Shown here piece after piece: positions 10,991-26,382 of a stretch of DNA of 64,000 nucleotides; positions within the stretch are counted from its first letter, which is position 1; each line of letters starts with the position of its first letter. The translations under genes were made by a program, and so were the position numbers. The stretch covers positions 30,134 to 94,133 of the IMG/VR virus record IMGVR_UViG_3300042453_004683; one strand, 5' to 3'. Source of the stretch: a virus. The notes below the pieces were generated by a model. The model searched no databases. It had not been told where the DNA came from and worked only from the letters and a program-made list of their open reading frames with translations.

Positions 10991-11036
10991 CGGGCTCTCC
11001 TGTGTGAGCGGCGTTGAGTGCCGCGACCACGCCAAC

Positions 11037-11065
11037 GACGTAGCAAGGTGCCCGCCAGCCGTCAA
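11037..11065 (-). promoter_or_regulatory. Sigma70-like promoter for 10990-10231
   Basis: Minus strand: TTGACG (11065-11060), 17 bases, TACGTC (11042-11037). A GGCGT/ACGCC hairpin follows in the leader. Confidence 0.65.
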
Positions 11066-11274
11066 GCAGCCCAGCTCGTCCAGGTGCGGTAGCCACATAC
11101 CAACGCCGTCAGGTGGTCCTCCATCAGTATGTTTACCACCCCCTCCGCTGCTCTTTGGCCGGAAAGAGTCAACGCGCCACTACGCACGCCGCTACGCATT
11201 ACACGCCGCCCGCCGTACGCGCGAGTACGGTGAACACGCCAGCCGCTACAAACCGCAACACGGCCAAAGAAGGC

Positions 11275-11298
11275 TGGGCAGCGGCGAAAGTTGACAGG
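11275..11298 (-). repeat. Dispersed repeat, box 2 (copy at 11.3 kb)
   Basis: On the minus strand this reads TGTCAACTTTCGCCGCTGCC. Near-identical sequence occurs at 29909-29930 and 53739-53756, in both cases near a box-1 element. There is no coding explanation. Confidence 0.7.
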
Positions 11299-11410
11299 TG
11301 GGCGCAGGATACCGCTCATGTTCTGCGAGAATGCGTCAGGGGTCTATCGTAGGGTATATAATCGAAATCGCCGAGAACGTGGTAACGAGCGGCGATCTCA
11401 CCGCCGGGGG

Positions 11411-11432
11411 TGATCCACTATCCTCCTAAGAT
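11411..11432 (-). repeat. Dispersed repeat, box 1 (copy at 11.4 kb)
   Basis: This 22-bp sequence, containing GGAGGATAGTGGATCA on the minus strand, is identical base for base to 29881-29902 on the plus strand. A 15-bp part of it recurs at 53616-53630. Confidence 0.85.
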
Positions 11433-11901
11433 CCTATAGACCCGTGCGCCCTGGATCGCGTCCGGCGTGGACCCCGTAGGGCGGGAGCCGGGAGGCTACC
11501 GGGCTATGACCTGGCCGGCTGGGTCATGTGCAAGCGGTAGAAGGGGCGGCTGAGACATAGGACATGAAGTCAACTGGTGCAAGGGGTGTAAGTCAGAAGA
11601 AGGGGTCGGGGTGGTGCGCGGCAGCGCACCGGGGGGCGCGACCGGGGGGCCTGGTGGCGGCGCGGCAGGCGGCGGGCGCGCTTGTGGGTGGGGTGCGGGG
11701 TTGTGCGGGGGGCGCCCGCTACCCGGCGGGGGGTGCGCGCTTCCCCTCCCGTCAGGCGGTGTGGCGCGTGGTAGACCGTGCCCCGTCTCACCCACGGTCG
11801 GCGGGCGCGCGGCGGCGGCCCGGACCCGCGGGGTCCTACGCTGCTCACCCCGTGAGGGACCGCGGGGCAGGGCAGGGGAAGAAGGGGTCAGGGTCGGCGG
11901 C

Positions 11902-11916
11902 GGGCGGGCGGGCGGG
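11902..11916 (+). repeat. G-quadruplex-type tract GGGC x4
   Basis: Four GGG runs spaced by single C residues on the plus strand. A second, longer tract lies at 12166-12185. Confidence 0.6.
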
Positions 11917-12099
11917 CGCCCCGGGCCCCGGGCCTGCGGGCGGACGTGGCCCGTGCTCGCACGCTACGGGCCCCAGGAGGCGCGTTGCCCCGGCGGGCGG
12001 GCCAGCGGTCGGGCCCCGGCGGGCGGCGCCTGGAAAGGGGCTTCCCGTGCAAGCGCGGGCGTCGGTGGTAGCCCCTACGTCAGACGGCTACCCGGAACG

Positions 12100-12131
12100 C
12101 GAGAAAGCCCCGACGGGCGGACCGTCGGGGC
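12100..12131 (-). terminator. Rho-independent terminator of the membrane-protein gene
   Basis: A perfect 10-bp stem (GCCCCGACGG with CCGTCGGGGC, 5-base loop) is followed on the minus strand by TTTCTC. It lies 66 bp after the stop of the gene at 12197. Confidence 0.7.
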
Positions 12132-12165
12132 AGGCGGGGCAGGCGAGGTCAGGCGGGCGCGCGGC

Positions 12166-12185
12166 GGGCGGGCGGGCGGGCGGGC
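12166..12185 (+). repeat. G-quadruplex-type tract GGGC x5
   Basis: Five tandem GGGC units on the plus strand, immediately before the end of the minus-strand membrane gene. Such tracts can stall polymerases or fold into quadruplexes. Confidence 0.6.
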
Positions 12186-12196
12186 GCCCGCGGCGG

Positions 12197-12691
12197 CTAC
12201 GGGCGACGGGCGGCGGGCGACGGGCCCGGGGTCTCAGCAACCCACGTCAGGAGGGCCAGCCCGACAAGCGCGGCGGCGCCAGCGCCCGACCCTGCGAGGG
12301 CGAACCACGGGATCGCGATCGCAAGGGCCAGCGTGCACGCTGCCCCGACGGCGGGCCCGGCGGCATCGGCCATCGTCGCGCCCGCGGCATCGGCCCAGCG
12401 CCCGAAGGCGCGGCGGGCCAGCGCCAGCGCCCCGACGACACCCCCCGCGGCGGCCCCGGCGGTCCGGGCGGCGGCCCCGATCGCCTTGCGGGGCGTGGTC
12501 CGGGCGGACGCGATCACGCGCTGACCGCGGGCCCCGTTCGGGCGGCGGCGGGAGATGACGATCGCGCACTCGATGTCAGCGCAGACGGTCCAGAGCCCGA
12601 CGACGGCGGCAACCGCGAGGGCCAGCGGCGCCAGCGCGAGACAGGCGAGGGAGGCGAGGGTCAAGGCGAGGGCGGCGGGGACGAGCAGCAT
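12197..12691 (-). CDS. Ala-rich membrane protein (164 aa)
   Basis: Two hydrophobic N-terminal segments (within residues 1-40, MLLVPAALALTLASLACLAL and on) and one near the C-terminus (ACTLALAIAIPWFALAG, then a further short segment) suggest three or four membrane passes around a basic, Ala/Gly-rich middle. The ATG at 12691 follows TTGGAGTGCCTACA, the same leader type (GGAGTG...ATG) as the plus-strand array at 13.4-16.5 kb. This supports the start and links this gene to that array. A strong terminator follows. The function is unknown; a lysis or envelope role is possible. Confidence 0.65.
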   Translation of the reverse strand: MLLVPAALALTLASLACLALAPLALAVAAVVGLWTVCADIECAIVISRRRPNGARGQRVIASARTTPRKAIGAAARTAGAAAGGVVGALALARRAFGRWADAAGATMADAAGPAVGAACTLALAIAIPWFALAGSGAGAAALVGLALLTWVAETPGPSPAARRP

Positions 12692-12902
12692 TGTAGGCAC
12701 TCCAAGTTGAGGGGCGGCGGCGCGCCCCGGGGGAACACTCGCCACGTAATGCGGCATCGGATCCGGGCAAGGCGAGATTAGCGCACAAGCGACGGAAAGT
12801 TGAAAGCGTCGGGCGGGCGGGCGCTTTCGACGATCGGCGGGCGGAGTGTTCACCGCTTTCACCGTTATATCTGTAGGGCCCGACGGCGGGCGGCGGGTGG
12901 TC

Positions 12903-12971
12903 CTCGAGAAGCTCGAGCCTATCGGCATTCTCGAGAATGGGATCCTCGAGCGGCGCGCGGCTGGGCTCGAG
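12903..12971. repeat. Cluster of five CTCGAG hexamers
   Basis: CTCGAG occurs at 12903, 12912, 12930, 12945 and 12966. Related CTCGACA repeats continue to about 13055. Five copies of a 6-bp palindrome in 69 bp is far above chance. Confidence 0.75.
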
Positions 12972-13104
12972 CGGCGGCGGGGTCAGCTCGCGAGCGGGTC
13001 AGCTCGACAGACGGGCGGGCGGAACTCGACACTCGACACGGGCGGGCGGGCTCGACACTCGGATCGCCCCCAAGTACTGCGACCAGGTTGTGTACCTGTA
13101 TCTT

Positions 13105-13243
13105 ATGCTGCAACGCAGCATGACCATAAACGATGGATCACCTTGCTCTATGGATCGCGCTGATCGGCATTCTCGACAATCGAGGGTCGGCCCTATGCTG
13201 CAACGCAGCATGACGGGCCAGGTCCTATGCTGCACCGCAGCAT
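13105..13243. promoter_or_regulatory. Three operator-like palindromes ATGCTGC-N3-GCAGCAT
   Basis: Perfect 7-bp arms around a 3-base centre occur at 13105-13121 (centre AAC), 13195-13211 (AAC) and 13227-13243 (ACC). Each is flanked by T before and GA after. Centres are 90 and 32 bp apart. The last two are preceded by CCTATG-type sequence, and GTCGGCCCTATGC itself recurs at 13267-13279. The arrangement resembles dimeric-repressor operators or replication iterons. Confidence 0.8.
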
Positions 13244-13327
13244 GACGGCTGGAAGGTCGAGAACGTCGGCCCTATGCGGATCGTAGCGGTTTCTATCGCT
13301 TGCCTACAAATATCTGCCCCGCTCCCC

Positions 13328-13356
13328 TTGGCGGCGGCGAGCGCCCGCCATATGAT
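13328..13356 (+). promoter_or_regulatory. Sigma70-like promoter of the small-gene array
   Basis: TTGGCG (13328-13333), 17 bases, TATGAT (13351-13356). The -10 is closer to TATAAT than elsewhere in this window. It lies 73 bp before the first ATG and 85 bp after the third palindrome. Confidence 0.65.
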
Positions 13357-13428
13357 GTCTGTGCCACCCAGCGGCGCGCCCGACGCGCCCGCTCCCCTCC
13401 CCTCCCCTCCCCCTCCGGAGTGTGCCCC

Positions 13429-13740
13429 ATGACCGATCCCGCGCTTGACCCCCGCTGCTCCTCCTGGACCTTCAATGCGGACGGTACGCTGACCGTCCGG
13501 GCCCCCGCGGGGCAGGAGCGCCCCATTCGGGCCCTCATGGCGGCTATGGGCTACGTCTGCCCCATCGTGGAAGACATGCCCGATGGTAGCGTGCTCATGC
13601 ACGATTCCCGCGCGATTGTCGAGATCTTCAATGACTGGCCCGTCAGCGGCCGCCGGTGCGACCCCGACCCCGAGGCCCCCGGCGGGCCGTGGTATGACGG
13701 CCCGGATCGCTGCGTGGTCGACGTGCTCAACCGCTACTGA
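13429..13740 (+). CDS. Small-array protein 1 (103 aa)
   Basis: The function is unknown. It is acidic and soluble, with a strand-rich N-terminal half and several Asp-Pro pairs. The start is fixed by the GGAGTGTGCCCC leader directly before the ATG, shared in type with the genes that follow. A GC-rich inverted repeat (CCCCC...GGGGG, about 13749-13763) and stem-loop A follow the stop. Confidence 0.7.
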   Translation: MTDPALDPRCSSWTFNADGTLTVRAPAGQERPIRALMAAMGYVCPIVEDMPDGSVLMHDSRAIVEIFNDWPVSGRRCDPDPEAPGGPWYDGPDRCVVDVLNRY

Positions 13741-13771
13741 CCTGCCCGCCCCCTTGCGGGGGCCCCGCGTT

Positions 13772-13832
13772 TGCCCTATCGGTATGCGTACTGGTAGGGC
13801 ATACCCGGCGCCCCGGCCCGGATTGTGCGTTT
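13772..13832 (+). repeat. Spacer element A: stem-loop plus constant 29-bp block
   Basis: The stem TGCCCTATC (13772-13780) pairs with GGTAGGGCA (13793-13801, one T-G pair) across a 12-base loop. It is followed at 13804-13832 by a 29-bp block that is repeated exactly at 14120-14148. Confidence 0.75.
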
Positions 13833-13852
13833 CACCTATTGGAGTGTTCCCG

Positions 13853-14062
13853 ATGTCCCGTCGAACGATGGTTGAGATTGTTGATTGCTACGAGGATCCC
13901 GCGCTTGCTGCGGGGCGCGCGTGGCTTGAGGCCCGCCGGGAAGCGGATCGCCTCAGCGCGATCGCGCGGCATACCCCGTCCTATGCGGACCGGGCCCGCC
14001 GGGCCCGTGAGGATGTCGCCTTGCTTGAGGCCCTCATCCACCAGAAGTACGGTACCCCGTAG
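13853..14062 (+). CDS. Small-array protein 2 (69 aa)
   Basis: This small helical protein of unknown function is rich in Ala and Arg and ends in HQKYGTP. The leader TTGGAGTGTTCCCG sits directly before its ATG. The spacers on both sides contain the constant 29-bp block. Confidence 0.7.
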   Translation: MSRRTMVEIVDCYEDPALAAGRAWLEARREADRLSAIARHTPSYADRARRAREDVALLEALIHQKYGTP

Positions 14063-14087
14063 CCCGCCCCCTTGCGGGGCCCCGCGC

Positions 14088-14148
14088 TTGACGGATCGGC
14101 GTCGTGTCGATCCGTCAACCCCGGCGCCCCGGCCCGGATTGTGCGTTT
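14088..14148 (+). repeat. Spacer element B: 11-bp perfect stem-loop plus constant block
   Basis: TTGACGGATCG (14088-14098) pairs perfectly with 14108-14118 around a 9-base loop. The 29-bp block at 14120-14148 is identical to 13804-13832. The stem sequence is unrelated to that of element A. Confidence 0.8.
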
Positions 14149-14175
14149 GCTTTCAACCTGTATGGAGTGTTCCCT

Positions 14176-14664
14176 ATGTCCACCGACACCCGTTACCGCG
14201 TCCTCTGCGCCGATGTCTCCCCCCTCGACCACGGCGGTACGTTCTACCGCGGCAACCTGACCGATGGGTTTGACGTGTTTGAAGTACAGCCCGTCGTCGC
14301 CTTTGTGGGCGAAGACGAGGCGGCCGATGTCGGTTTCCCCTTCTGGAGCCGTGAGTCCTTCCACGATCGGGAGGACATCGCCGCTACCCTGTCCGATCGG
14401 CTCACTCTCGGGTACGTCGGCGCCGATCGGCTGCTCGGTCGCGATGTCGACAGCCTGACGGACGCTGAGATCCTTGAGGTTGTGTACGCTCGCCATGCGG
14501 TCGGCTGCGGTACCGACGAGGGCCCCGCGGGGTGGAGCGCGGATCTCCCCCTTGAGGATCTCGGGATCGATCCCGCTGACGGCGCGGCGGCCGATGATGA
14601 CTTTCGGCGCGATGTCCTCGGGGAAGACGACGACACCGACGACGACACCGACGACGGCGAATAG
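14176..14664 (+). CDS. Small-array protein 3, acidic (162 aa)
   Basis: The function is unknown. The N-terminal 90 residues look like a small mixed fold. The C-terminus is strongly acidic and ends in the repeat DDDTDDDTDDGE, encoded by GACGACACC-type units also found in the SMC-like gene at 45.2 kb. The leader ATGGAGTGTTCCCT precedes the ATG. Confidence 0.7.
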   Translation: MSTDTRYRVLCADVSPLDHGGTFYRGNLTDGFDVFEVQPVVAFVGEDEAADVGFPFWSRESFHDREDIAATLSDRLTLGYVGADRLLGRDVDSLTDAEILEVVYARHAVGCGTDEGPAGWSADLPLEDLGIDPADGAAADDDFRRDVLGEDDDTDDDTDDGE

Positions 14665-14700
14665 CAGCCCCGCCCCCGCCCACCGTCGGCGGGTCGCCCC

Positions 14701-14730
14701 GATGACACCGGCTTAGCCGCTGGTGTCATC
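14701..14730 (+). repeat. Spacer stem-loop C
   Basis: GATGACACC (14701-14709) pairs perfectly with 14722-14730 around a 12-base loop that itself contains GGC/GCC. It has the same position and size as elements A and B but different arms, and no constant block follows. Confidence 0.7.
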
Positions 14731-14817
14731 CGGCCGGCTCACCCTGAACGGTTGTTCATGGCCCGGATCCGTCAGTCAACCTGGCGCCGTTGCGCGCCTA
14801 TGCCCGGAGTGTTCCCT

Positions 14818-15144
14818 ATGTCCGATGTCAAGCCGCCCCGCCTCCCCCCGATCGATACCCTCGCCCGCATCGTGGCCGATGTCCGGCGGGATCTCTACCG
14901 CTACGACGCTGACGACGTGCCCTATATCCAAGTCACGATCGGGATCGACGGCCGCGGCGGGTGGGGCTACCAGACGGGCGATAACTCGTATTCCGGCGCG
15001 GCCTACCACTACCCGTACTGGGGTGTCGCCGAAGTCTACCGCCGGCGCGACGTGCGCGAGACCGCGCGAGACGTGGCCCGTCAGCTCCGCAACGATGCCG
15101 CAGAAGCGTACTGGGCCAGCGAACCCTACGCCCCCCGCGAGTAA
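14818..15144 (+). CDS. Small-array protein 4 (108 aa)
   Basis: The central part (YIQVTIGID, then GWGYQTGDNSYSG and YHYPYWGV) is unusually aromatic and resembles small conserved proteins I associate with other phages, but I cannot name a function. The leader CCGGAGTGTTCCCT lies directly before the ATG. Confidence 0.7.
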   Translation: MSDVKPPRLPPIDTLARIVADVRRDLYRYDADDVPYIQVTIGIDGRGGWGYQTGDNSYSGAAYHYPYWGVAEVYRRRDVRETARDVARQLRNDAAEAYWASEPYAPRE

Positions 15145-15240
15145 GCCCCCGCTGGCGCCCGCCGTCCCCTCCCGTTCCCCTCTCAACCCGCCCGCCCCGG
15201 CGCCGTCAGCCGGCGGGCCCCTCAATACGGAGTGTTTCCT

Positions 15241-15636
15241 ATGCCCTACCGCCCCGCGCCGTTCACCGGCTACCGCAAGGCCCTCTATGTCTATGTCCGC
15301 ACGACGTTCAATGGCGCGCCCGCCGTCGTCTGGGGCGGCTACCCGCCCGCCGGCGCGGGCGTGGCGAGCGTCAACGTCCCCGACCCCGCCCGCTGGACCG
15401 GCAAGCGGCGGGTCAACGTCCCCTATCTGGGGCTGCCCCTCAAGCTACAGGCGCTGTTCATCGGCCGGATCGTCTGGGCCCGCGCGCTTCACCGGCGCCG
15501 GCACGCCCTCCCCTGTCTGTCCTGCTACAACCCCGGCCCCGCGCCCCGCCCGCGTGACAGCCGGGGCCGGTTCGCCCCGCTCCCCGACGCGCCGCCCGTG
15601 GCCTACTGGCAACCGCCCCGCCCGTGGAACGGGTAG
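15241..15636 (+). CDS. Small-array protein 5, basic and Pro-rich (131 aa)
   Basis: The protein is basic, rich in Pro, Arg and Tyr, with a CLSC pair near residue 91. I do not recognise it. The leader ACGGAGTGTTTCCT precedes the ATG, one more variant of the shared leader. Confidence 0.65.
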   Translation: MPYRPAPFTGYRKALYVYVRTTFNGAPAVVWGGYPPAGAGVASVNVPDPARWTGKRRVNVPYLGLPLKLQALFIGRIVWARALHRRRHALPCLSCYNPGPAPRPRDSRGRFAPLPDAPPVAYWQPPRPWNG

Positions 15637-15677
15637 CCCCGCCCGGTAGCTTCCCCGCCCCGTCGGGGCGCCCCGCC

Positions 15678-15709
15678 GGTACCACGGCTGACCCGCCGAT
15701 CGTGGTACC
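15678..15709 (+). repeat. Spacer stem-loop E
   Basis: GGTACCACG (15678-15686) pairs perfectly with CGTGGTACC (15701-15709) around a 14-base loop. It has the same design as A-C, with unrelated arms. Confidence 0.7.
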
Positions 15710-15779
15710 CGCCGGCCGCTGGCCCGATGTCTCTCCCTCAACCCCCGGCGCCGCCGCGCGCCTCCCTCAGGAGCGTTCC

Positions 15780-15977
15780 ATGCGCAACCGCCCCGCCCAT
15801 TCGGGCTTGCACGTTCTCGACTACTACAACCCCGCCCGGACCACGGCCGACCCCGACGGCTGGCGCGACCGCGAGACCGCCCGCGGCCGCCGCGCCCGCC
15901 GCCGCGGGTACGCCCGCGCGGAGCGGATCGATCGCGCCCTCGCCGCCGCCGACGCGGCCGCCGGGGGTGCCCGGTGA
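15780..15977 (+). CDS. Small-array protein 6, Arg-rich (65 aa)
   Basis: This short, very basic protein has an RRARRRGYARAE core and a helical Ala-rich tail. It might bind nucleic acid, but this is composition only. The leader is AGGAGCGTTCC. Its stop overlaps the GTG of the next gene. Confidence 0.6.
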   Translation: MRNRPAHSGLHVLDYYNPARTTADPDGWRDRETARGRRARRRGYARAERIDRALAAADAAAGGAR

Positions 15978-16381
15978 GCGCCCGTGTAACCGTCGGCGGC
16001 CCCTCCCCCGCCGCGCCCCCCGAGCTGGGGCCCTACGCCCAGCGGATCGCCGTCATCCGCCCGCTGCTCACCGGGGAGCGCGCCGAGGTCTGGACCTATG
16101 GCGGCGACGGGATCGCGATCGTCAGCGTCGACAAGCCGCGCGGCCGGTCCGCCGGTGGGCGCGTGGTCTTCGCCGCCACCGGCTACCCGCAGAGCGTCAG
16201 GCGCTTCGGCGACATTGGGATCGCGGGTAACGTGTTTGACTATGGTCTTTACTGGGCCGACGAGTCCGCCGATCTCGCGGCCGCCGAGGATGTCACGATC
16301 GATCGCGCGTGGTGGGGCTCTGCCCTCGCCGACGCGGCCGCCGGCGCCGTATTCGCTGCGGCTGAGCGCGCCGGCCGGTAG
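15974..16381 (+). CDS. Small-array protein 7 (135 aa)
   Basis: Unknown soluble protein. The GTG start overlaps the preceding stop (GTGA), so it depends on coupled translation and lacks the array leader. It has a strand-rich core (AEVWTYGGDGIAIVSVDKPR) and an Ala-rich C-terminal helix. A terminator-like hairpin follows at 16393. Confidence 0.65.
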   Translation: MSARVTVGGPSPAAPPELGPYAQRIAVIRPLLTGERAEVWTYGGDGIAIVSVDKPRGRSAGGRVVFAATGYPQSVRRFGDIGIAGNVFDYGLYWADESADLAAAEDVTIDRAWWGSALADAAAGAVFAAAERAGR

Positions 16382-16392
16382 CTGCCCCGGCA

Positions 16393-16421
16393 CGGGGGAA
16401 AGATTAGAAATATCTCCCCCG
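16393..16421 (+). terminator. Hairpin preceding a promoter
   Basis: CGGGGGA pairs with TCCCCCG, with an inner GAT/ATC and a 2-base bulge, around an AT-rich loop. It ends five bases before the -35 at 16426, the hairpin-then-promoter arrangement seen repeatedly here. Confidence 0.5.
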
Positions 16422-16425
16422 GCCC

Positions 16426-16454
16426 TTGACCCCCTCCCCTCAGTCAGATATAAG
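16426..16454 (+). promoter_or_regulatory. Sigma70-like promoter within the small-gene array
   Basis: TTGACC (16426-16431), 17 bases, TATAAG (16449-16454). It has the most classical -10 of the set. Confidence 0.75.
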
Positions 16455-16514
16455 AGTGTATCACCCGGCGGGCAGACAACCCCCCGCCGCTTCCCCTCCC
16501 CGGAGTGTGTCATC

Positions 16515-16850
16515 ATGGCGTTCCCTTCCGTAAAGACCCTTACCACGCGCCTCCCCCTGTCCGCCGATCAGGCCGCCGAGCTTCGGAAACTCGCCGCCGA
16601 CGGGCGCAAGCCCGGGGTCATCCTCGCCGCCGCCGATCGGATGCTCGGCGCGCATGGTGTGGAGCGTATCGTGCCCGACCGGGCCATGAATGACCCGTGG
16701 TGCGCGGACCGTGGGATCCGCTACGTCAACCGCGGCGATAGCTACGATGACACCCTGATCCACGACACCCGCCGGGATACGTGGCGCGTCTGTAGCTGGG
16801 CGGGCATCATCGAGGCGCAGCCCGCCCGGTTCAACGGCGCCGGCTTCTAA
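16515..16850 (+). CDS. Small-array protein 8 (111 aa)
   Basis: A helical N-terminal part (LSADQAAELRKLAADG) is followed by a compact aromatic C-terminal part. The function is unknown. The leader CGGAGTGTGTCATC precedes the ATG. A perfect 8-bp GCCGGGCG/CGCCCGGC hairpin (16874-16894) follows. Confidence 0.7.
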   Translation: MAFPSVKTLTTRLPLSADQAAELRKLAADGRKPGVILAAADRMLGAHGVERIVPDRAMNDPWCADRGIRYVNRGDSYDDTLIHDTRRDTWRVCSWAGIIEAQPARFNGAGF

Positions 16851-16873
16851 CGCTGTAGCTGGCTCCCTCCCCC

Positions 16874-16894
16874 GCCGGGCGCGGTCCGCCCGGC
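16874..16894 (+). terminator. GC hairpin after small-array protein 8
   Basis: A perfect 8-bp stem with a 5-base loop. No T-run follows, so termination is not assured. Confidence 0.4.
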
Positions 16895-16926
16895 CTGTCC
16901 CTGTAACTCTGTCCCTATGGTGACCT

Positions 16927-17175
16927 ATGGTGATCTTCATTGTCGCGCGTGAGTACTTCCGTTCCGCCGGGCACACTGTCCAGGGCATCACTTGGGCGGC
17001 CTACCTTGACGGTGAGCGCGTCGGCGGCGGCTACCTGCCCCCCGACGCGGTGAGCGGGAACCACGCTGCGCGGTATCGCGTCAATCAGGCGGCCGTGGCG
17101 GCCGGTCTCGGCGACATCGCCGCCGCAGCGTGCGAGATCGTGCGCGTCCCCGTCAACCGGTTGCGCGACGCTTAG
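16927..17175 (+). CDS. Small-array protein 9 (82 aa)
   Basis: Unknown small protein with an N-terminal strand (MVIFIVAREYF) and an Ala-rich helical C-terminus. The start region has the duplicated sequence CTATGGTGA (16915 and 16925); the second ATG is in frame. No clear Shine-Dalgarno is present. Confidence 0.6.
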   Translation: MVIFIVAREYFRSAGHTVQGITWAAYLDGERVGGGYLPPDAVSGNHAARYRVNQAAVAAGLGDIAAAACEIVRVPVNRLRDA

Positions 17176-17213
17176 GCCCCTCCGTCTCAACGTCCACACT
17201 TGGAGTACGCATC

Positions 17214-17633
17214 ATGCCCCGCCCCCGTCTCGTGCCCGCCCACGCCCTCCGCGCCGCCGTCCCCGGCGCGGCGCTCCCCGAATGGGCCCGCCGCCACAAC
17301 CGCGCCGTGTTCGATCCGCAGGGCTTCGAGCTGCCGATCGTGTTGCTCTGGCGCGCGATCGTGTCGGCCCCCGACCTGCCCGTCAGCCGGCAGACGGCAA
17401 CCACGATCCGCGCGCGCTACGCCGCCGAGCACCGGCACCGCTACGGCTCCCCCGTCACCGATGATTGCGTCATCGGGGAGGCGCTGGCCGCCGCCCTCGC
17501 CCCGGACGGCACCGCCGCCGAGCGGCTCAACGCCGCCGCCGACCTGCTCAACGGGGAGATCGGCCGCCTCGACGGCGGTACCCTGTCCGGCCTGCTCGTG
17601 GCCGCCGCGGCCCGCGCGGGCGTGACCCTGTAG
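17214..17633 (+). CDS. Small-array protein 10 (139 aa)
   Basis: Unknown, mainly helical, Ala- and Arg-rich protein. The start follows TTGGAGTACGCATC, a variant of the array leader. The 184-bp gap after it carries several GC-rich inverted repeats but no gene that I can support. Confidence 0.65.
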   Translation: MPRPRLVPAHALRAAVPGAALPEWARRHNRAVFDPQGFELPIVLLWRAIVSAPDLPVSRQTATTIRARYAAEHRHRYGSPVTDDCVIGEALAAALAPDGTAAERLNAAADLLNGEIGRLDGGTLSGLLVAAAARAGVTL

Positions 17634-17817
17634 CAGGGCCGCCCGACGGCGAACGGCGCCCGCCGACAACGGCGCCGGCATCGAGTGCATTAGCCGTGGC
17701 AGTACGGGTAACCCGCATGGGGCGGGTGACCTGGCCGCCTATGGCTACACGCCCGACCCTTCCGGCTGCAATGATGCCGGACAGCGCCCCGGGGAATGGG
17801 GAGACAGGGAACGCACA

Positions 17818-18456
17818 ATGTCTGACCGTAGCAGCACCACGCTCACCCGTCAGGGTTTCCACGTCACCATCATGGCGGAGGTTGACCCCTTCGCCTGCGC
17901 CGTGTCCGAACTGGCCGACCGGGGGCACGTCGTCCAGACGTGGCAGGGCCCGTATCACGGGTGGGCGACCTTCACCCCCGGCCAGCCGCGCCGGGACGAT
18001 CGGGGCGTGACCCACAACCGCCCGCCCCGCCCCTCCTCGTGCGGGGGGAACTGGCGCGTCGTCAAGGCCGCCGGCCCGTCTCAGGGTGACAGCTACCGGA
18101 TCTGGTACAACGCCGACGAGATCCCCGCCGACGAGCGCGCCGCCTTCGCCGACAACGCGGCGGCCATGATGAACGGTACGGTGTCCGCCTATGGGCTGAC
18201 CGTCGAGATCCGCGCGACGCCCGGCGGCTCGGTACTCGCGGAGTCGGCCCTGTTCGGGTTCTGGATCGAGTACCGCCCCGACGGTGCCACCCTCATTCAG
18301 GAGGCCGACGGCGCCGGCATGATCGACGAGGCGATCCACAAGGCCCGCCGCAACGCAGCCGCCGCCGTCACCCGCCTGCGCGCCGAGGCCGACACGATCG
18401 CCGCGGCCATGCGCCGGGACGCCGACGCGATCGCCGCGGTCTGCGCGGGCGTGTAG
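17818..18456 (+). CDS. Small-array protein 11 (212 aa)
   Basis: Unknown. It has a mixed N-terminal half and a long C-terminal helix rich in Ala, Arg and Asp (about 160-212) that could form a coiled coil. It is preceded by GGGAACGCACA; the same ACGCACA-ATG motif precedes the gene at 18603. Confidence 0.65.
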   Translation: MSDRSSTTLTRQGFHVTIMAEVDPFACAVSELADRGHVVQTWQGPYHGWATFTPGQPRRDDRGVTHNRPPRPSSCGGNWRVVKAAGPSQGDSYRIWYNADEIPADERAAFADNAAAMMNGTVSAYGLTVEIRATPGGSVLAESALFGFWIEYRPDGATLIQEADGAGMIDEAIHKARRNAAAAVTRLRAEADTIAAAMRRDADAIAAVCAGV

Positions 18457-18602
18457 CCCCTCGGGGCGGGTGCCCCTTCTTCGCGCCCGTCCCCGGCCGG
18501 CCTCGTCGCACGTCGATCCGGCCGGACGGCGGGCGCTGTCTGACCCCCTCTCCCCTTGCCTGCTGCCCTCCTCCCCTCCCGCAAACACTACAGGTACGCA
18601 CA

Positions 18603-19091
18603 ATGACCGCCGCCGCTGACCGTCAGCCCGACTTCGCGATCGTCCTCGCCCCCGCCGAGAGCGCAGACGGCTGGCCCGTCCCGCCGCCCGGCCTCGTCGG
18701 CGTGAGGCCCGTTCTGGCGGTCGACCGCCGCGGGTGCTTCCGGTGGTGCTCGCCCGAAGTCCTGACCGCCGCTGAAGTCGTGGCCTATCTCCCGGTCATG
18801 GGCGAGGGCTCCACCGCCGAGCAGAGGAAGGCCGCCGCTGAATACCTGCTCCGGGCGGTGTCGGGTCTCCACCCGGACCGGGAGGGGATCGATATGGCGA
18901 TCCCCGCGGATCGCGTCGTCGCCGAGCGCCGCAAGGGAACGCACGACATCGCCGCCTTCACCCCGGCGTACCCCGTGCTGCTCAACCGCTGGCGCCCCTA
19001 CGGCGCGCGCCCCTCGTGGCCCGCCGTCCGCCGATGGGGTCGCGGTCCCCGGACCTACGCGCGCCTGCTCAAGCTGGCCGCCGCTGTCTGA
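18603..19091 (+). CDS. Small-array protein 12 (162 aa)
   Basis: Unknown soluble protein with a basic, Arg/Pro/Trp-rich C-terminal third. The leader GGTACGCACA precedes the ATG, as for the previous gene. Confidence 0.6.
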   Translation: MTAAADRQPDFAIVLAPAESADGWPVPPPGLVGVRPVLAVDRRGCFRWCSPEVLTAAEVVAYLPVMGEGSTAEQRKAAAEYLLRAVSGLHPDREGIDMAIPADRVVAERRKGTHDIAAFTPAYPVLLNRWRPYGARPSWPAVRRWGRGPRTYARLLKLAAAV

Positions 19092-19192
19092 CGTAGCTCT
19101 CAACGGCGCCGGCCGGTCTGACGGTCGGCGGCCCTCCCCTCCCCTGTCTGCTCCCCGCTCAACGACCGCCGTCGCGGCCGAAGGATCCCGCC

Positions 19193-19468
19193 ATGTCTGA
19201 GCCTGAGATCATCATCGTCGCGGGCCTCGGCCTGAAGGCCGTGCACGCCCGCAGCACCACACGCGATGGGCGGCCCCGCGTCGAGTACGCGCCCCACGGC
19301 CACCCCATCGCCGCGCCCGTCGCGGGGTGCTGGGCGTACACCGCGAGTACCCGCACGCTCACCCCCGACGAGGCGCGCGAGGCGATCGCGTTCGAGCGCG
19401 CGCAGGCGATCCCTCGTGGTGTGGGTTGCGCCGACCCCTCGTGCTGGTGCCGCGGCATCGTGCCTTAG
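19193..19468 (+). CDS. Small-array protein 13 (91 aa)
   Basis: Unknown. The C-terminus contains CADPSCWC, a cluster of three cysteines that could bind a metal, although no fourth ligand is obvious. The leader is AAGGATCCCGCC. Confidence 0.6.
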   Translation: MSEPEIIIVAGLGLKAVHARSTTRDGRPRVEYAPHGHPIAAPVAGCWAYTASTRTLTPDEAREAIAFERAQAIPRGVGCADPSCWCRGIVP

Positions 19469-19614
19469 TCTCTCCCCTCCCCCTCCCGCCGCCGGGAGGG
19501 TGCAACCCGCCGACGGTCGGCGGCGCGCCGAAGCGTACCCCGGTCGCGCCGTGTCTGAAGTCGTCGGCGGCTTTCACCCTGTCGGGATTGTCCCTCACAA
19601 TGTCAGGAGCTGCC

Positions 19615-20181
19615 ATGTCCGCCGATGTCCTGCCCGAAGTCGCCGCTGCAATCGTTTGTTTGTCCCGCGCCGCCGGGATCGCGCGCCCGCCCGTCACCTT
19701 CCGCCCCGTGCCGGGGCTGCCCCTCGTCGTCTTCGATCTGACGGCCGCCGCCTTTCCCGTCGATCGTCGCGAATGGTACGCGGTCCCCGTCAACGATGCC
19801 GCCGCCGTCGCCGCGTGGGTTGAGGCGGGGACGCTGACGCCGGACGAGATCGCGAGCGCCTTGTGCGAGTACCACGTACAGGGCGAGGCCGCCGAGCAGG
19901 CCGCCGTCGCACTTGGTATGGTGATCTTCCATCTCGACGAGGGTACCGCCGAAACGCTCACCGCCCACCCCTGCGCCGCTGCCCTCGCCGCCGCGTGCGA
20001 GGCGGGCCGTCTGCTTGGATGGATCGCGGACGGCTACGCGCTGGGCGTCACCGTCCCCGCCGAGCACCCCGACGCGGCGCGGGAGATCTTGGCCCCGCTC
20101 GGCTACGTCCTGCGCGCCGAGCGCCCCGCCGAATGGTGTCCCGCTGGCACCACCCGGCAGTCGTGGATCTTCGGATACTGA
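19615..20181 (+). CDS. Small-array protein 14 (188 aa)
   Basis: Unknown. It is Ala-rich, with alternating helices and strands. The start follows TGTCAGGAGCTGCC, almost the same leader as the next gene (TGTCAGGAGCTACC), so the pair may be a duplication at the leader level. Confidence 0.65.
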   Translation: MSADVLPEVAAAIVCLSRAAGIARPPVTFRPVPGLPLVVFDLTAAAFPVDRREWYAVPVNDAAAVAAWVEAGTLTPDEIASALCEYHVQGEAAEQAAVALGMVIFHLDEGTAETLTAHPCAAALAAACEAGRLLGWIADGYALGVTVPAEHPDAAREILAPLGYVLRAERPAEWCPAGTTRQSWIFGY

Positions 20182-20224
20182 CTCAGACGTTTCGATCCCT
20201 CGCCTCACCCTGTCAGGAGCTACC

Positions 20225-20878
20225 ATGCCCGCCGACGCCCTTTCCATCGTGGTCCGCCTCACCGCCGCCGCTCTCCAGTACGGTGAGCGGATCGCCTTCC
20301 GCGCCGTCGTCCTGCCGTTGCTTGACGGCACCTTCATCCTCGCCACGTTCGACCGGCGGACCGTGGCGCTCACCCTCGCCGACGCCGAGCAGGCGGCCCT
20401 TGCCGCCGAGGGTGACGGCGCATGGCAGGACATCCCCGACGCCGAGCGTGACCCGGACAGCCTCCCGCTGGACAGCCTGCTCGGCATGGTCCGCGCCTCC
20501 GCCGTGGCCGACTGGGACGTGCTTTCGCGCGTGGCCGTGGCCGCCGGTCGTGCGCTCGTTATCCCCGGCGCGCTGGTCGGCGCGGATGACTGGGCCCACC
20601 CGTGCTGGCCCGACCTGCGCGCGCTGCTCGTCGACGCGGTGACGGTGGAGACGCCGAGCGGGTACACCTACGCCACCCCCGGAACGCCGGTCGCCGACAA
20701 GCCGATCGCCAGCGTCAGCGCGTGCGACGAGGGCGGCGTCGACATCTGGCACACCGTCGCCGGCAAGGCCGCCGTCGTCCGCATCATGGCGCTGCGCGGC
20801 TACGCGCCCTGCTACGAGCACGCGCCCGCCTCCCGCGCGGACGGTCTGATCATGACCGCGTGGCGCTGGATCGGCTGA
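20225..20878 (+). CDS. Small-array protein 15 (217 aa)
   Basis: Unknown. The leader is TGTCAGGAGCTACC. Its N-terminal 60 residues (AFRAVVLPLLDGTFILATFD) resemble in pattern the corresponding part of the previous protein (RPVPGLPLVVFDLTAAAF), so they may be diverged paralogues. The stop is 15 bases before a hairpin that overlaps the next promoter. Confidence 0.65.
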   Translation: MPADALSIVVRLTAAALQYGERIAFRAVVLPLLDGTFILATFDRRTVALTLADAEQAALAAEGDGAWQDIPDAERDPDSLPLDSLLGMVRASAVADWDVLSRVAVAAGRALVIPGALVGADDWAHPCWPDLRALLVDAVTVETPSGYTYATPGTPVADKPIASVSACDEGGVDIWHTVAGKAAVVRIMALRGYAPCYEHAPASRADGLIMTAWRWIG

Positions 20879-20892
20879 AGAATAACAGCACA

Positions 20893-20937
20893 ATCTCCCT
20901 TGCCGGTCGGCGGTGAGGGAGATACAAGAATGGAAAC
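20893..20937 (+). repeat. Hairpin-promoter-tag element 1
   Basis: ATCTCCCT (20893-20900) pairs with AGGGAGAT (20916-20923). Downstream lies the constant tag ATGGAAACCCCGCC, which recurs after the hairpin at 21858. The arms of the two hairpins differ while the design and tag are kept. Confidence 0.75.
20900..20928 (+). promoter_or_regulatory. Sigma70-like promoter overlapping a hairpin
   Basis: TTGCCG (20900-20905), 17 bases, TACAAG (20923-20928). The -35 lies in the hairpin loop and the -10 begins at its last paired base. Confidence 0.65.
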
Positions 20938-20967
20938 CCCGCCCCCACCGCCGGCGCTGGAGATACG

Positions 20968-21318
20968 ATGCTCACCATTGACGACTACCGCCGCACCGTC
21001 GGCTTCATCGCAGGAAACCTGCGGCATATCTGCCGCGGCGGTTTCATCCGCAGCACCGAGGGGTTGCGCGAGGCTGCCGAGCACGCGGTTCAGATGTCCC
21101 GCTGCTTCCACAACCCCGACAACGCGATCAAGGTCCTCGGCTTCTCCGGCAACGCGGACGCCGCCGAGGACGCGCTCGGCTGGAGCGGACTGGTCGCGGG
21201 CTGCCGCTCCTTCGACGAGCTGGTACACCGCAAGGCATACTATGCCTTGCTCGCCGATGTCGAAGCTCTGCTCGTGGACATCACCTTCGACGAGGAGGCG
21301 GCCGATGCCTCCGCGTAA
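20968..21318 (+). CDS. Hypothetical protein (116 aa)
   Basis: Unknown helical protein with a central His/Cys-containing segment (MSRCFHNPDNAIK). ATG at 20968 follows CTGGAG. It overlaps the next gene by 14 bases. Confidence 0.7.
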   Translation: MLTIDDYRRTVGFIAGNLRHICRGGFIRSTEGLREAAEHAVQMSRCFHNPDNAIKVLGFSGNADAAEDALGWSGLVAGCRSFDELVHRKAYYALLADVEALLVDITFDEEAADASA

Positions 21319-21853
21319 GAAGAAGCCAGCGGCACCGCCGCCCGCACCTGCCCCGCCCCCCGCTGTCCAGCGGCCCGCCGCGCCGAAGCCGCCCGCCTTC
21401 ATCCCGCCCTCCCCGTGGCGGCGGTTCGACCCGCTCTGCCACGTCACCCTCGGCCTCGACCGGCTGACCTTCGGGTCGGCGGCCGATGCCTCCTGGGCGG
21501 CCGAGCGGGTGGTGTCAGCGCACCCCGACCTCCCCGCCGACGTGGTGGATCTCCTCCGCACGCTGGCCGATGACATCGGCCGGTGGGATGCGGCCCTCGT
21601 CGACGCCGCCGAGGCTGTCAACGAGGCAGAGGACCGGGCGGAGAAGGCCAACGACGCTGCGGCGATCCACGCCGCCGCTTCGAGCAGCACGATCGATGAA
21701 CTGAACGAGGAGATCGGTAAGCTCCGCAGCGCCGAAGACAGGTACGGTGAGCAGATTGACGACCTCGCCGAGCAGGTCGACACCCTGCGCGCCGAGCGTG
21801 ACGCCGCCCGGCAGGTCCTCGCAGACATGCTTCGCCACGCCGGCCTCGTGTGA
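21305..21853 (+). CDS. Pro-rich, coiled-coil protein (182 aa)
   Basis: The N-terminus (residues 1-40) is Pro/Ala/Lys rich and disordered. Residues 100-180 form heptads (IDELNEEIGKLRSAEDRYGE; DDLAEQVDTLRAERDAARQV). It could be a structural or scaffolding-like adaptor, but this is inferred from shape only. The ATG at 21305 lies inside the preceding gene. Confidence 0.65.
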   Translation: MPPRKKKPAAPPPAPAPPPAVQRPAAPKPPAFIPPSPWRRFDPLCHVTLGLDRLTFGSAADASWAAERVVSAHPDLPADVVDLLRTLADDIGRWDAALVDAAEAVNEAEDRAEKANDAAAIHAAASSSTIDELNEEIGKLRSAEDRYGEQIDDLAEQVDTLRAERDAARQVLADMLRHAGLV

Positions 21854-21857
21854 GATT

Positions 21858-21915
21858 ATCTGGTCCAGGTACTTGCGGGTTTCGCCCGGACCAGATACAA
21901 CGATGGAAACCCCGC
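21858..21915 (+). repeat. Hairpin-promoter-tag element 2
   Basis: ATCTGGTCC (21858-21866) pairs perfectly with GGACCAGAT (21888-21896). The tag ATGGAAACCCCGCC follows, as in element 1 at 20893. Confidence 0.75.
21873..21901 (+). promoter_or_regulatory. Sigma70-like promoter overlapping a hairpin
   Basis: TTGCGG (21873-21878), 17 bases, TACAAC (21896-21901). It is built like the promoter at 20900. Confidence 0.65.
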
Positions 21916-21929
21916 CTGGAGTTCTCGCC

Positions 21930-22220
21930 ATGCAGACCGACACCCCGGCCGTCCCCGCCGATGTCCTCGACCGCGCCCGCGCCCTCGCGCGTGGCAGCTA
22001 CCAGCGCAGCCTCCTCGACGGCTACGCCCGCTGGTCGGGCGCCGACCTGCGCGGCGCCGCGAAGCGGTGGAGCGGGCGGTACGCCGCCTCCCGCTCCGGC
22101 CTGTTCCGCCGCCTGCGCAAGGCGGGCCTCGACGTGGCCGTGCGCTACGTCACCACGTCCAACAACCGGCAGGCCGTCGCGCTCTGCCTGGCGGGCGTGC
22201 CCGTCAGCGCGGTACCGTAG
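21930..22220 (+). CDS. Hypothetical basic protein (96 aa)
   Basis: A basic, helical protein, with RSLLDGYARWSGADLRGAAK in the first half and further Arg/Lys-rich helices. It may bind nucleic acid; the family is not recognised. ATG at 21930 follows CTGGAG. Confidence 0.65.
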   Translation: MQTDTPAVPADVLDRARALARGSYQRSLLDGYARWSGADLRGAAKRWSGRYAASRSGLFRRLRKAGLDVAVRYVTTSNNRQAVALCLAGVPVSAVP

Positions 22221-22221
22221 C

Positions 22222-22416
22222 ATGGCACCCGCGTGGTACACCTCCGCCAACCTGGCGGGGCTGGCTCTGGCCGCGCTGGTCTGCGCCATCGCAAACGTCG
22301 GGCTCGGCGTCGTGCTCGGACACGGCGACGAGCACTACCCCGCCGCCGTGGTCTGCGCGGTGGTCGGGTTCTTCCTGACACTGCTCGCCAAGGCGGCGAG
22401 CAACGACGGCCTGTAG
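22222..22416 (+). CDS. Small two-segment membrane protein (64 aa)
   Basis: Two hydrophobic segments, about residues 9-32 (LAGLALAALVCAIANVGLGV) and 41-58 (AAVVCAVVGFFLTLLA), are separated by an HGDEHY turn. This is holin-like in size and topology, but it is far from the endolysin gene and any small membrane role is possible. It starts one base after the preceding stop. Confidence 0.6.
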   Translation: MAPAWYTSANLAGLALAALVCAIANVGLGVVLGHGDEHYPAAVVCAVVGFFLTLLAKAASNDGL

Positions 22417-22465
22417 CGGGCTGCCGCGCCCCGCTGTGCTGTTCCCTTCACCTCTGGAGTCTCCA

Positions 22466-22873
22466 ATGACCGCCGCCCCCGCCGCCTTCGACCCCTCCGC
22501 CGACAACACCCTTCCGCCTCCCCCGGAGACCATCGTGCTCGACTTCTACGTCATCGACAACATCCGCCGCCTCCCCCTCACCGTCGGCCCCAACGGTACC
22601 CCGTGCCCGACGGTGGGCTTCACGGACGATCCGCCCCAGGTCTTCCAGTCCCCCGACATCGACGGCGACCTCACCGTCCGCGTGGTCCGCCGCCACGTCG
22701 GCGCCACGGGCGACGTGGAGTGGGTCGACGTGGGCGACCCCGCCTACTCCCTCAAGGAGTTCCGCGCCATCACCGCCGGGCTGGTGTGCGACGGTGCGCT
22801 GACCCGCGCCGAGGCCGACGCGCTGGTCAACGAGGCGGCGGCGCTGATCGCCCGCCCGCAGGTGAGCGAGTGA
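22466..22873 (+). CDS. Hypothetical protein (135 aa)
   Basis: Unknown acidic protein with a strand-rich centre and a helical C-terminus. The leader CTGGAGTCTCCA precedes its ATG. Its TGA overlaps the GTG of the next gene. Confidence 0.65.
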   Translation: MTAAPAAFDPSADNTLPPPPETIVLDFYVIDNIRRLPLTVGPNGTPCPTVGFTDDPPQVFQSPDIDGDLTVRVVRRHVGATGDVEWVDVGDPAYSLKEFRAITAGLVCDGALTRAEADALVNEAAALIARPQVSE

Positions 22874-23163
22874 GGCTCGCCCGCGCCCGCCGGCGGCTGA
22901 CGCTACGCGGGCTGGTCGCCCTGCGGCCCACCGGGTTCGTCCGGCTGCCGATGGTGGCCGGCACCGTGCCGCGGCTGGTCCATCGGAGCAACGGGATGTT
23001 GTTCCTCGTGGTCCGCGAGGACCGCGTGTTCCCCGACATCGGCCGCTTCGGCCTGTCCATCGTCGACTACGTGCCCCGCCTCGACGGGCGGGCCAGCATC
23101 CGGCTGACCCGCCGCTGGCGCGGCTGCGCGGCCGATGGTACTGGTGTCGAGCTGCCCTTCTGA
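22870..23163 (+). CDS. Hypothetical basic protein (97 aa)
   Basis: Unknown. The N-terminus is Arg-rich and the rest strand-rich. The GTG start overlaps the upstream stop (GTGA), and translation is likely coupled. Confidence 0.6.
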   Translation: MRLARARRRLTLRGLVALRPTGFVRLPMVAGTVPRLVHRSNGMLFLVVREDRVFPDIGRFGLSIVDYVPRLDGRASIRLTRRWRGCAADGTGVELPF

Positions 23164-23199
23164 TTGTGTGATGACACTCACCCCTGGAGCACTGACACC

Positions 23200-23469
23200 A
23201 TGCCCCTCGCCCCCTACAACACGTCCCTCGACCTGCCCACCCTGTCCGGCATCCTGCCCGCCGACTTCGACCCGACCCTCTGGTCGACGCCGGAGCTGCG
23301 CGAGTACCCCGCCGACCCGACCTCGCCGGCCATCTGCGACGTGATGCTCTACTCGATCCACCTGGACACGCGCCGCTACGTCAACGTCGCCTTCGGGCGT
23401 GACCTCGCGGACATCATCGACCGGAACCCAGCGCACGCCGCCTGGATCAAGTCGGCGGTGAAGAAGTGA
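23200..23469 (+). CDS. Hypothetical protein (89 aa)
   Basis: Unknown small soluble protein. It follows a CTGGAG site. The GTGA at its end starts the next small membrane gene. Confidence 0.65.
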   Translation: MPLAPYNTSLDLPTLSGILPADFDPTLWSTPELREYPADPTSPAICDVMLYSIHLDTRRYVNVAFGRDLADIIDRNPAHAAWIKSAVKK

Positions 23470-23618
23470 GCGAGTTCCTGGTGCTCACCGGCATGGCGTG
23501 CTACGTCGTGGCCGGCGTCTGGTGGTCCGAGTTCGCTCGGATCACGCTCGACCAGCGGGTCGCGCGCCGGTTGGTGTGGGCAGTCATCGTCCCCGTCATC
23601 CTCTGCAATCTTCCCTGA
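23466..23618 (+). CDS. Small membrane protein (50 aa)
   Basis: GTG at 23466 overlaps the preceding TGA. The frame encodes two hydrophobic segments, FLVLTGMACYVVAGVWW and VWAVIVPVILCNL, separated by a basic loop (ITLDQRVARR). Coupling and composition suggest a real gene. It lies directly before thyA. Confidence 0.55.
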   Translation: MSEFLVLTGMACYVVAGVWWSEFARITLDQRVARRLVWAVIVPVILCNLP

Positions 23619-23632
23619 CAGGATCCCCGCTT

Positions 23633-24520
23633 ATGTTGACCATCGAACTCGACTACCTCGGCGTCCTCGGCAACCTCGTCGAACTGGCAGGGTCCGGTCA
23701 CGTCCGCCGCGGGCGAACCTCGACCCCGTGGGTGTCATTGTCGGCGCCCATCTTCATCGACTTCTACGTCGGCGCCGGCTGCCGGCTGCCGCTCCTGACC
23801 ACCAAGAAGATGCACACGCGCAGCATCCTCGCCGAGCTGGTCTGGTTCCTGCGCGGCGACACCAACGTGCGCTGGCTCCAGGCGCACGGCGTCACCATCT
23901 GGGACGAGTGGGCCGACGCCGCCGGCAACCTCGGCCCCGTCTACGGCCACCAGTGGCGGCGCTGGCGCGACGAGCGCAGCGGCACCAGCATCGACCAGGT
24001 GCAGCGCGTCATCGACGGCTGGCTTCGCGACCCCTACGACCGCGGCCTGGTCGTGTCCGCCTGGAACGTGGCCGACCTCGGCTCGATGGCGCTCCGTCCG
24101 TGCCACTACGCATGGCAGATCACCTGCCCGGAGCCGGGCGTGATGGACATCCACGTTCAGCAGCGCAGCGCCGACTGGTTCCTCGGCGTGCCGTACAACC
24201 TGGCCTCGTACTCGGCGCTCCTGATCCTGCTCGCCAAGGCGGTCGGCGTCACGCCAGGCACCGTCTGGTGGAGCGGGGCCGACTGCCACCTGTACCTGAA
24301 CCACGTCGAGGCCGCGCAGCGGCAGTTGGCGGTGCGGGCTGCGGCGCTGGAGAGCGCGTTCACGGGCACGGACAGGTACACCGCCCCGTGCCTCGTCGTC
24401 TCGGACGAGGCCGACATCTACTACGCCGTCACCGACGAGGGCGCGTTGACGCTGGACATGTTCGAGGTGACCGGCTACAACCCCGTGGGCCCGGTGATCC
24501 GTGCGCCCGTCGCCGTGTAG
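23633..24520 (+). CDS. thyA: Thymidylate synthase (ThyA family)
   Basis: ThyA makes dTMP from dUMP with methylene-tetrahydrofolate. The 295-aa protein has the folate/dUMP motif RSILAELVWFLRGDTN (63-78), the catalytic Cys157 in LRPCHYAWQ, the QRSADWFLGVPYN signature (177-189), the GADCHLYLNH segment (GDxH in most enzymes) and the canonical C-terminal IRAPVAV. Length is normal. It fits with the dihydrofolate reductase at 25861, which regenerates the folate this enzyme oxidises, and with dUTPase and ribonucleotide reductase elsewhere in the window. ATG at 23633 is 15 bases after the previous stop; the ribosome-binding site is weak (CAGGA). Confidence 0.97.
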   Translation: MLTIELDYLGVLGNLVELAGSGHVRRGRTSTPWVSLSAPIFIDFYVGAGCRLPLLTTKKMHTRSILAELVWFLRGDTNVRWLQAHGVTIWDEWADAAGNLGPVYGHQWRRWRDERSGTSIDQVQRVIDGWLRDPYDRGLVVSAWNVADLGSMALRPCHYAWQITCPEPGVMDIHVQQRSADWFLGVPYNLASYSALLILLAKAVGVTPGTVWWSGADCHLYLNHVEAAQRQLAVRAAALESAFTGTDRYTAPCLVVSDEADIYYAVTDEGALTLDMFEVTGYNPVGPVIRAPVAV

Positions 24521-24531
24521 GAGACTTGACC

Positions 24532-24630
24532 ATGAAGCCGTCTGACCTACTGCTGTCGCTCATGCCGAGCGTGATGTCCCTCGACGAACTCGCCGGCACG
24601 GTTGCGCACAACGTCCGCATCCGTTACTGA
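24532..24630 (+). CDS. Possible 32-aa peptide, or first part of a TGA-interrupted gene
   Basis: ATG at 24532 follows TAGGAG. The frame encodes MKPSDLLLSLMPSVMSLDEL and 12 more residues, then TGA at 24628-24630. The same frame continues open for 50 codons to 24783, so this and the next entry may be one gene. Confidence 0.4.
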   Translation: MKPSDLLLSLMPSVMSLDELAGTVAHNVRIRY

Positions 24631-24783
24631 TTGATCGTCAGCGGCTTCACCTACACCACCACGAGACACCACGTCATCGAATACTGCGGCGTCGGTGGCT
24701 TCTACATCAAGACGCCCGACTTCGCGATCAACCTCGACTTCACCCCGCGCTGGATGCGCACAACCACGACCGGAGGATACTGA
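24631..24783 (+). CDS. Open frame directly after an in-frame TGA (50 aa)
   Basis: The reading frame TTG ATC GTC AGC GGC continues without a break after the TGA at 24628. It encodes a strand-rich, aromatic sequence (SGFTYTTTRHHVIEYC; GGFYIKTPDFAINLDF) and ends with TGATG, overlapping the next gene. No ribosome-binding site supports a separate TTG start. The composition is that of real coding sequence, which suggests readthrough, a nonsense mutation or a second coupled gene. Confidence 0.4.
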   Translation: MIVSGFTYTTTRHHVIEYCGVGGFYIKTPDFAINLDFTPRWMRTTTTGGY

Positions 24784-25813: not shown

Positions 25814-25860
25814 CTTTGTGGGCGTCTCCTACCCACCCCCATAACACGCGGGAGGTCCCT

Positions 25861-26289: not shown

Positions 26290-26291
26290 GG

Positions 26292-26320
26292 TTGACGGCG
26301 GTGGAGGGCCGAGGTACTTG
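26292..26320 (+). promoter_or_regulatory. Sigma70-like promoter of the nuclease-methyltransferase gene
   Basis: TTGACG (26292-26297), 17 bases, TACTTG (26315-26320), followed by TGTGGA. The 20 bases from the spacer end through TGTGGA match those at 35204. A CGGCGGG/CCCGCCG hairpin (26329-26349) forms the 5' leader. Confidence 0.8.
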
Positions 26321-26382
26321 TGTGGAAGCGGCGGGCAGCGAACCCGCCGGGCACCCGACCCCGCAACACCAGGAGAACACGC

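Follow-up and report, generated by a model that had tools for sequence, protein, structure and literature searches.

The early genes of phage T7 are separated by RNase III sites, which are imperfect RNA hairpins of ~60 nt in a polycistronic transcript, with R1.1, also ~60 nt in length, providing a model substrate (PMC4858673). In the cluster K mycobacteriophages, the SAS/ESAS system places a Shine-Dalgarno leader at many non-structural gene starts, and upstream of about half of these sites lies an inverted repeat whose spacer varies; the ESAS repeats follow a 17-bp consensus, and the differences among them do not support RNA pairing (PMC3203893). The promoter early stem-loops (PeSLs) of the T4-type phages are described, at second hand, as composite promoter-terminator motifs, and a similar motif is mentioned there for the haloarchaeal virus HGTV-1 (PMC4503421, PMC3950731). 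In phages, small accessory genes come and go quickly, and how the newcomers gain correct expression is poorly understood.

The locus analyzed here lies in a window of 64,000 nucleotides, which corresponds to positions 30134-94133 of the IMG/VR virus record IMGVR_UViG_3300042453_004683, totalling 94,133 bases. The virus has a GC content of 69%, and the window codes for a DNA polymerase, a helicase, a primase/helicase, a ribonucleotide reductase, a terminase, and a major head protein. Searches with three baits (the DNA polymerase, the terminase, and a 701-aa structural-region protein) recovered one full-length relative, IMGVR_UViG_3300034072_001395 (96,570 bases, DNA polymerase identity 74%), whose positions are prefixed L016 below. 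The same baits also recovered a 24-kb fragment, whose terminase is near-identical and which has no match to the array; beyond these two records, they found remote terminases only. The two viruses are broadly syntenic, and in both of them an array of small genes separates the structural half from the half with thymidylate synthase and replication functions. The first genes of the array in the window are:

13429..13740, + strand: gene A, 103 aa, no Pfam or PHROG match
13853..14062, + strand: gene B, 69 aa
14176..14664, + strand: gene C, 162 aa
14818..15144, + strand: gene D, 108 aa
15241..15636, + strand: gene E, 131 aa, preceded by the D-E spacer, which lacks a strong hairpin
15780..15977, + strand: gene F, 65 aa, with a homologue in the relative's array
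15974..16381, + strand: gene G, 135 aa, the final gene ahead of the next promoter

Four of the five spacers among genes A-F (window 13.4-15.9 kb) hold inverted repeats well above shuffled sequence, in the form of extended, imperfect hairpins of about 52-63 nt each, which begin 12-31 nt past the stop codon and end 37-74 nt ahead of the next start codon:

13756..13817, + strand: hairpin S1 (A-B spacer), arm of 29 positions with 23 Watson-Crick and 2 G-U pairs, loop of 4 nt
14075..14131, + strand: hairpin S2 (B-C spacer), CGGGGCCCCGCGCTTGACGGATCGGCG / ...CGATCCGTCAACCCCGGCGCCCCG
14688..14743, + strand: hairpin S3 (C-D spacer), arm of 25 positions, loop of 6 nt
15668..15719, + strand: hairpin S5 (E-F spacer), arm of 23 positions, loop of 6 nt, degenerate base

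The number of Watson-Crick pairs is 19-25 in S1-S3 and the relative's elements, and 17 in S5. An earlier, sequence-only reading had reported four stem-loops with variable arms, and all four were recovered, the pairs TTGACGGATCG/CGATCCGTCAA (14088-14118), GATGACACC/GGTGTCATC (14701-14730), and GGTACCACG/CGTGGTACC (15678-15709) being exact, while TGCCCTATC/GGTAGGGCA, from 13772, pairs with one T.G. The same reading had placed such hairpins between successive genes in general, which is borne out by four of the spacers but not by the D-E spacer (15145-15240), where a strong hairpin was absent (p=0.19, shuffle test).

Exact short hairpins are common at such a GC content, and extended imperfect hairpins were therefore scored. 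Exact hairpins of 9 bp or more number 34 in 94 kb, and are thus not rare on their own, while S2 (51) and S1 (49) have the top two imperfect-hairpin scores across the whole 94-kb record. A genome-wide scan of the relative placed five of its six hairpins scoring 49 or more in the array. When each spacer was compared with 400 dinucleotide shuffles, for which the lowest attainable value is p=0.0025, S1, S2, and S3 each exceeded all of the shuffles (p=0.0025), S5 gave p=0.0125, and spacers S1-S4, S7, and S9 of the relative again gave p=0.0025.

The “constant flanks” of the earlier description mostly pair with each other, forming the base of a hairpin of 57-62 nt. This base has the form GGGGC-c-CCG-c-G-c-TT / AA-c-C-c-CGG-c-GCCCC, with recurring 1x1 C/C mismatches; the hairpin starts with GGGGCCCCGCGCTT and ends with AACCCCGGCGCCCC, and the variable arms stand above the single C/C mismatches, which lie at fixed places. 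The 29-bp block reported after two of the hairpins, followed by a shared leader, was confirmed as identical in both copies:

13804..13832, + strand: identical 29-bp block, copy 1, its first part being the 3' basal arm of S1
14120..14148, + strand: identical 29-bp block, copy 2
13841..13855, + strand: start leader GGAGTGTTCCCGATG, a Shine-Dalgarno sequence plus conserved bases

The block largely represents the 3' side of the base, and its remainder pairs partly further out in one folding. The block is found in only two of the four elements. The start leader, of the GGAGTGTTCCC type, occurs at 13417, 13841, 14164, 14806, and 15229. In the form GGAGTGT(TCCC)-ATG (13417-15784 and 16502), it is concentrated at array gene starts, with few occurrences in the rest of the genome, and the relative uses a similar leader. 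A conserved start leader together with an upstream inverted repeat recalls the SAS/ESAS system, but the 13-bp SAS, GGGATAGGAGCCC, differs from the leader of the window, which places the latter outside the SAS. Membership of the ESAS was rejected as well, given that these repeats follow a single 17-bp consensus, whereas the arms in the window differ among sites and yet pair.

The distribution of the element is narrow. A covariance model, which scored S1 at 72.7 bits and S2 at 76.5 bits, recovered its four training elements and one further spacer of the relative with a partial base (L016:9091-9148, E=0.0012); nothing else fell below E=0.1, reverse-strand images aside. Scans of viral collections for the hairpin base, a pattern that does not use the tops, returned the known relative only, plus one chance match in an unrelated contig; these scans were not exhaustive, given that L016:10124 was reported and L016:9546 was missed, though it fits the pattern by eye. 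The base pattern had 15 matches in 257 Gb of genomes, none of them with the full hairpin, and these are chance matches. Nothing in the 11000-26500 region approached the gathering score of any of 4227 Rfam models, and the array stretch and spacer block had no convincing match in phage and plasmid records.

The relative offers the comparison that the sequence-only reading had proposed. Two of its spacers, L016:9546-9613 and L016:10124-10184, carry the same base with different tops, and L016:8743-8805 has a long hairpin of its own. The genes flanking these hairpins differ from those of the window virus, and the array genes of the two viruses are almost all non-homologous, F being the only clear match in this stretch (L016:10214-10438, E=5e-10 in a 30-protein search); a hairpin precedes this gene in both viruses, with a different base and top. 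The absence of homologues for genes K, L, M, O, P, and R rests on blastp runs, which detected a weak homologue of gene T in the relative. Searches of Pfam and PHROGs with ten array proteins (13.4-17.6 kb) found no match, and an IMG/VR search found no relative of gene D. The hairpin fold persists where genes and arm sequences do not, and the virus seems to keep the fold while its neighbouring genes turn over. Two distantly related viruses thus retain the same intergenic punctuation, while their genes almost all differ.

This arrangement is also what a portable regulatory frame similar to the PeSLs would leave behind, where the base offers a short homology for the swapping of small genes by general recombination and the hairpin has a regulatory role besides. 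Such a frame has been proposed for the T4-type PeSLs and the HGTV-1 motif (PMC4503421, PMC3950731), and it would account for an array at the same syntenic place with nearly all of its genes different and a matching hairpin base, as well as for the exact 29-bp block shared by S1 and S2, whose tops differ at most pairs. The same base stands between different genes in the relative, as exchange would predict, but no exchange event can be traced with two genomes. Identity between the genomes ends where the stem ends, which is the expectation from selection on structure, and the shared runs are only ~17-18 bp per side. The array hairpins (class 1) also lack the promoter of the PeSLs, and no tyrosine recombinase was found in either virus. 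This frame is unlikely on balance, albeit a serious contender, and were the hairpins also exchange points, the PeSL idea would extend past the T4-type phages to a different element.

The pairing itself indicates the level at which the element is read. In an alignment of four elements, 94% of the cells are paired and seven pairs are altered on both sides, with a covariation score of 0.405 vs 0.155 in shuffled alignments (0/500), falling to 0-0.06 once the partners are slid. This set comprises four elements from two genomes, S1 and S2 having been found through looking like hairpins, and the independent supports therefore weigh more. One of them is that the matches of the base pattern in 257 Gb of genomes lack the hairpin. 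Within the array spacers, G-U exceeds C-A by 30:12 (strand-symmetric score; p=0.003 against composition), in comparison with 326:293 in hairpins outside the array in both genomes. Nothing in an inverted repeat acting only as DNA would favor G-T over C-A on a single strand, and the excess of G-U points to RNA of the transcribed strand. The reading of the spacers as coding for hairpin RNA is well supported by these patterns. The suggestion of gene-specific regulatory hairpins holds as far as structure is concerned, with arms that differ yet pair and a preference for G-U on the transcribed strand.

Dimeric proteins can bind to perfect inverted repeats, and the attC sites of integrons retain their structure despite a variable sequence, so that the repeats might instead be operators, or attC-like recombinase sites read as folded DNA. 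Simple operators were rejected, given that the different arms would demand a different protein for each site and that the G-U excess lies on one strand. Cassettes of the attC type were rejected for want of an integron-type tyrosine recombinase in both records, where no PF00589 match passed the cut-off and the relative had a single sub-threshold hit, of 13.6 bits; the host may supply such an enzyme. A reading at the DNA level is very improbable overall. Recombination-cassette ends, raised by the sequence-only reading, are a possibility with which the same base between different genes in the relative, and the gene turnover between conserved frames, are compatible; no tyrosine recombinase was found in either genome.

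The hairpins may also be placed in relation to transcription. Sites resembling sigma70 promoters number five in 13 kb, against 0.45 expected from shuffles, and two of them frame the genes A-G:

13328..13356, + strand: putative sigma70-like promoter TTGGCG-17-TATGAT, ahead of operon A-G, by consensus only
16426..16454, + strand: predicted sigma70-like promoter TTGACC-17-TATAAG, opening the next operon, by consensus only

Upstream of the 13328 promoter, a palindrome (ATGCTGCAACGCAGCAT) occurs in three copies, one of them with CACC, at 13105-13243; it is likely an operator, and is missing from the relative. Between A and G, the only promoter-like site is a weak one at 14702 in S3, made of the palindromic arms. 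With one promoter before A and the next clear one after G, the hairpins are probably inside one transcript, and a single polycistronic transcript is the most likely setting for A-G. Membership of the PeSLs, which combine the stem-loop with an early promoter, was rejected, as S1, S2, and S5 have no promoter-like sequence and the weak site in S3 is its own arms.

GC-rich hairpins soon after stop codons invite the explanation that they are transcription terminators, or attenuators, which lack a U-run. Each of eight hairpins has only 0-2 T in the 10 nt that follow it, and ordinary intrinsic (rho-independent) terminators were therefore rejected; full termination would, in addition, silence the later genes, which have no promoter-like site of their own within A-G save the weak one in S3. 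Termination or attenuation is thus improbable.

The hairpins are comparable with the T7 RNase III sites in their size of ~60 nt, their placement after the stop codon, the free sequence of the stem, and the internal mismatches, and a role in mRNA processing or stability is favored for this reason. They form a double helix of ~20 bp between cistrons of what is probably a single transcript, as is typical of intercistronic RNase III sites. They differ from the T7 sites in the C/C-mismatched base common to sites and viruses, and in the GC-rich virus that carries them, and cleavage would be a matter of analogy here. The statement that such a design is known from no described phage element was too strong, as SAS/ESAS, PeSLs, and the T7 sites each share part of it. 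With the PeSLs, compared by second-hand description, the likeness lies in repeated intergenic stem-loops among small, fast-changing genes, and the difference lies in the lack of both promoter and U-run in the class-1 hairpins. These hairpins recur at gene borders in a region where the two viruses differ in gene content, and the element is regarded as a variant of the intercistronic phage hairpins which stands outside the SAS/ESAS, PeSL, and T7 families, none of which it matches fully.

The preferred reading, which is plausible at a little under even confidence, is that the intergenic RNA hairpins of one operon mark boundaries of mRNA processing or stability. The hairpins would fold in the mRNA and act as boundaries between cistrons, with RNase III of the host, or a comparable enzyme that cuts double strands, as the likeliest actor; neither virus has an RNase III gene. 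The nuclease would divide the early transcript, giving distinct mRNAs with structured ends, as in T7. For such a nuclease, a fixed sequence would matter less than a double helix of RNA, and the tops may drift provided that the pairing stays. The shared base, with its mismatches, could place the cut or bind a protein, which is a guess. The one spacer of the five without a hairpin counts against the boundary reading. If the boundaries are real, they would provide a simple, testable means of insulating each cistron.

RNase III needs no conserved base, and the base shared by the two viruses suggests a more specific reader. It calls for more than cutting that is blind to sequence, and a protein-binding site or a frame similar to the PeSLs stays live for this reason. 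The hairpins might thus be sites for an RNA-binding protein of the phage or the host, or control the translation of the next gene through folding, with the base being recognized and the top serving as a spacer or label. What the two viruses have in common is the base, with its conserved 1x1 C/C mismatches, and the array genes have the conserved GGAGTGT leader downstream of the hairpin and ahead of the ATG; nevertheless, the full base is present in only two of the four window elements and two of the relative's, and the start codons are 37-74 nt away, outside the hairpin, which makes this explanation rather unlikely. A more speculative and distinctly doubtful proposal is that the two-part element, with its constant mismatched base and gene-specific top, is a conserved regulatory skeleton of the accessory-gene region, into which unrelated genes are fitted and exchanged, the tops acting as labels for a dedicated reader.

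A second class of hairpins in the same array, at 20893-20943 and 21857-21916 of the window, has unique arms (ATCTCCC/GGGAGAT and TATCTGGTCC/GGACCAGATA) which overlap, by eye, the promoter-like sequences TTGCCG-17-TACAAG and TTGCGG-17-TACAAC, and are then followed by an identical ATGGAAACCCCGCC. In the hairpin at L016:10442-10479 of the relative, the loop is the TTGACG of a promoter-like site. These second-class hairpins are closer to the PeSLs than those of class 1.

A stretch of ~38 bases, at 17647-17677 of the window and L016:10952-10983, is 95% identical between the two viruses, and lies just past a stop codon, amid genes that are not homologous. No viral contig apart from the relative's was found to share it. 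The stretch begins 13 and 10 nt past a UAG followed by CAG, and can form an H-type pseudoknot (CGGCG/CGCCG plus CGGCGCC/GGCGCCG) with an A-rich third loop.
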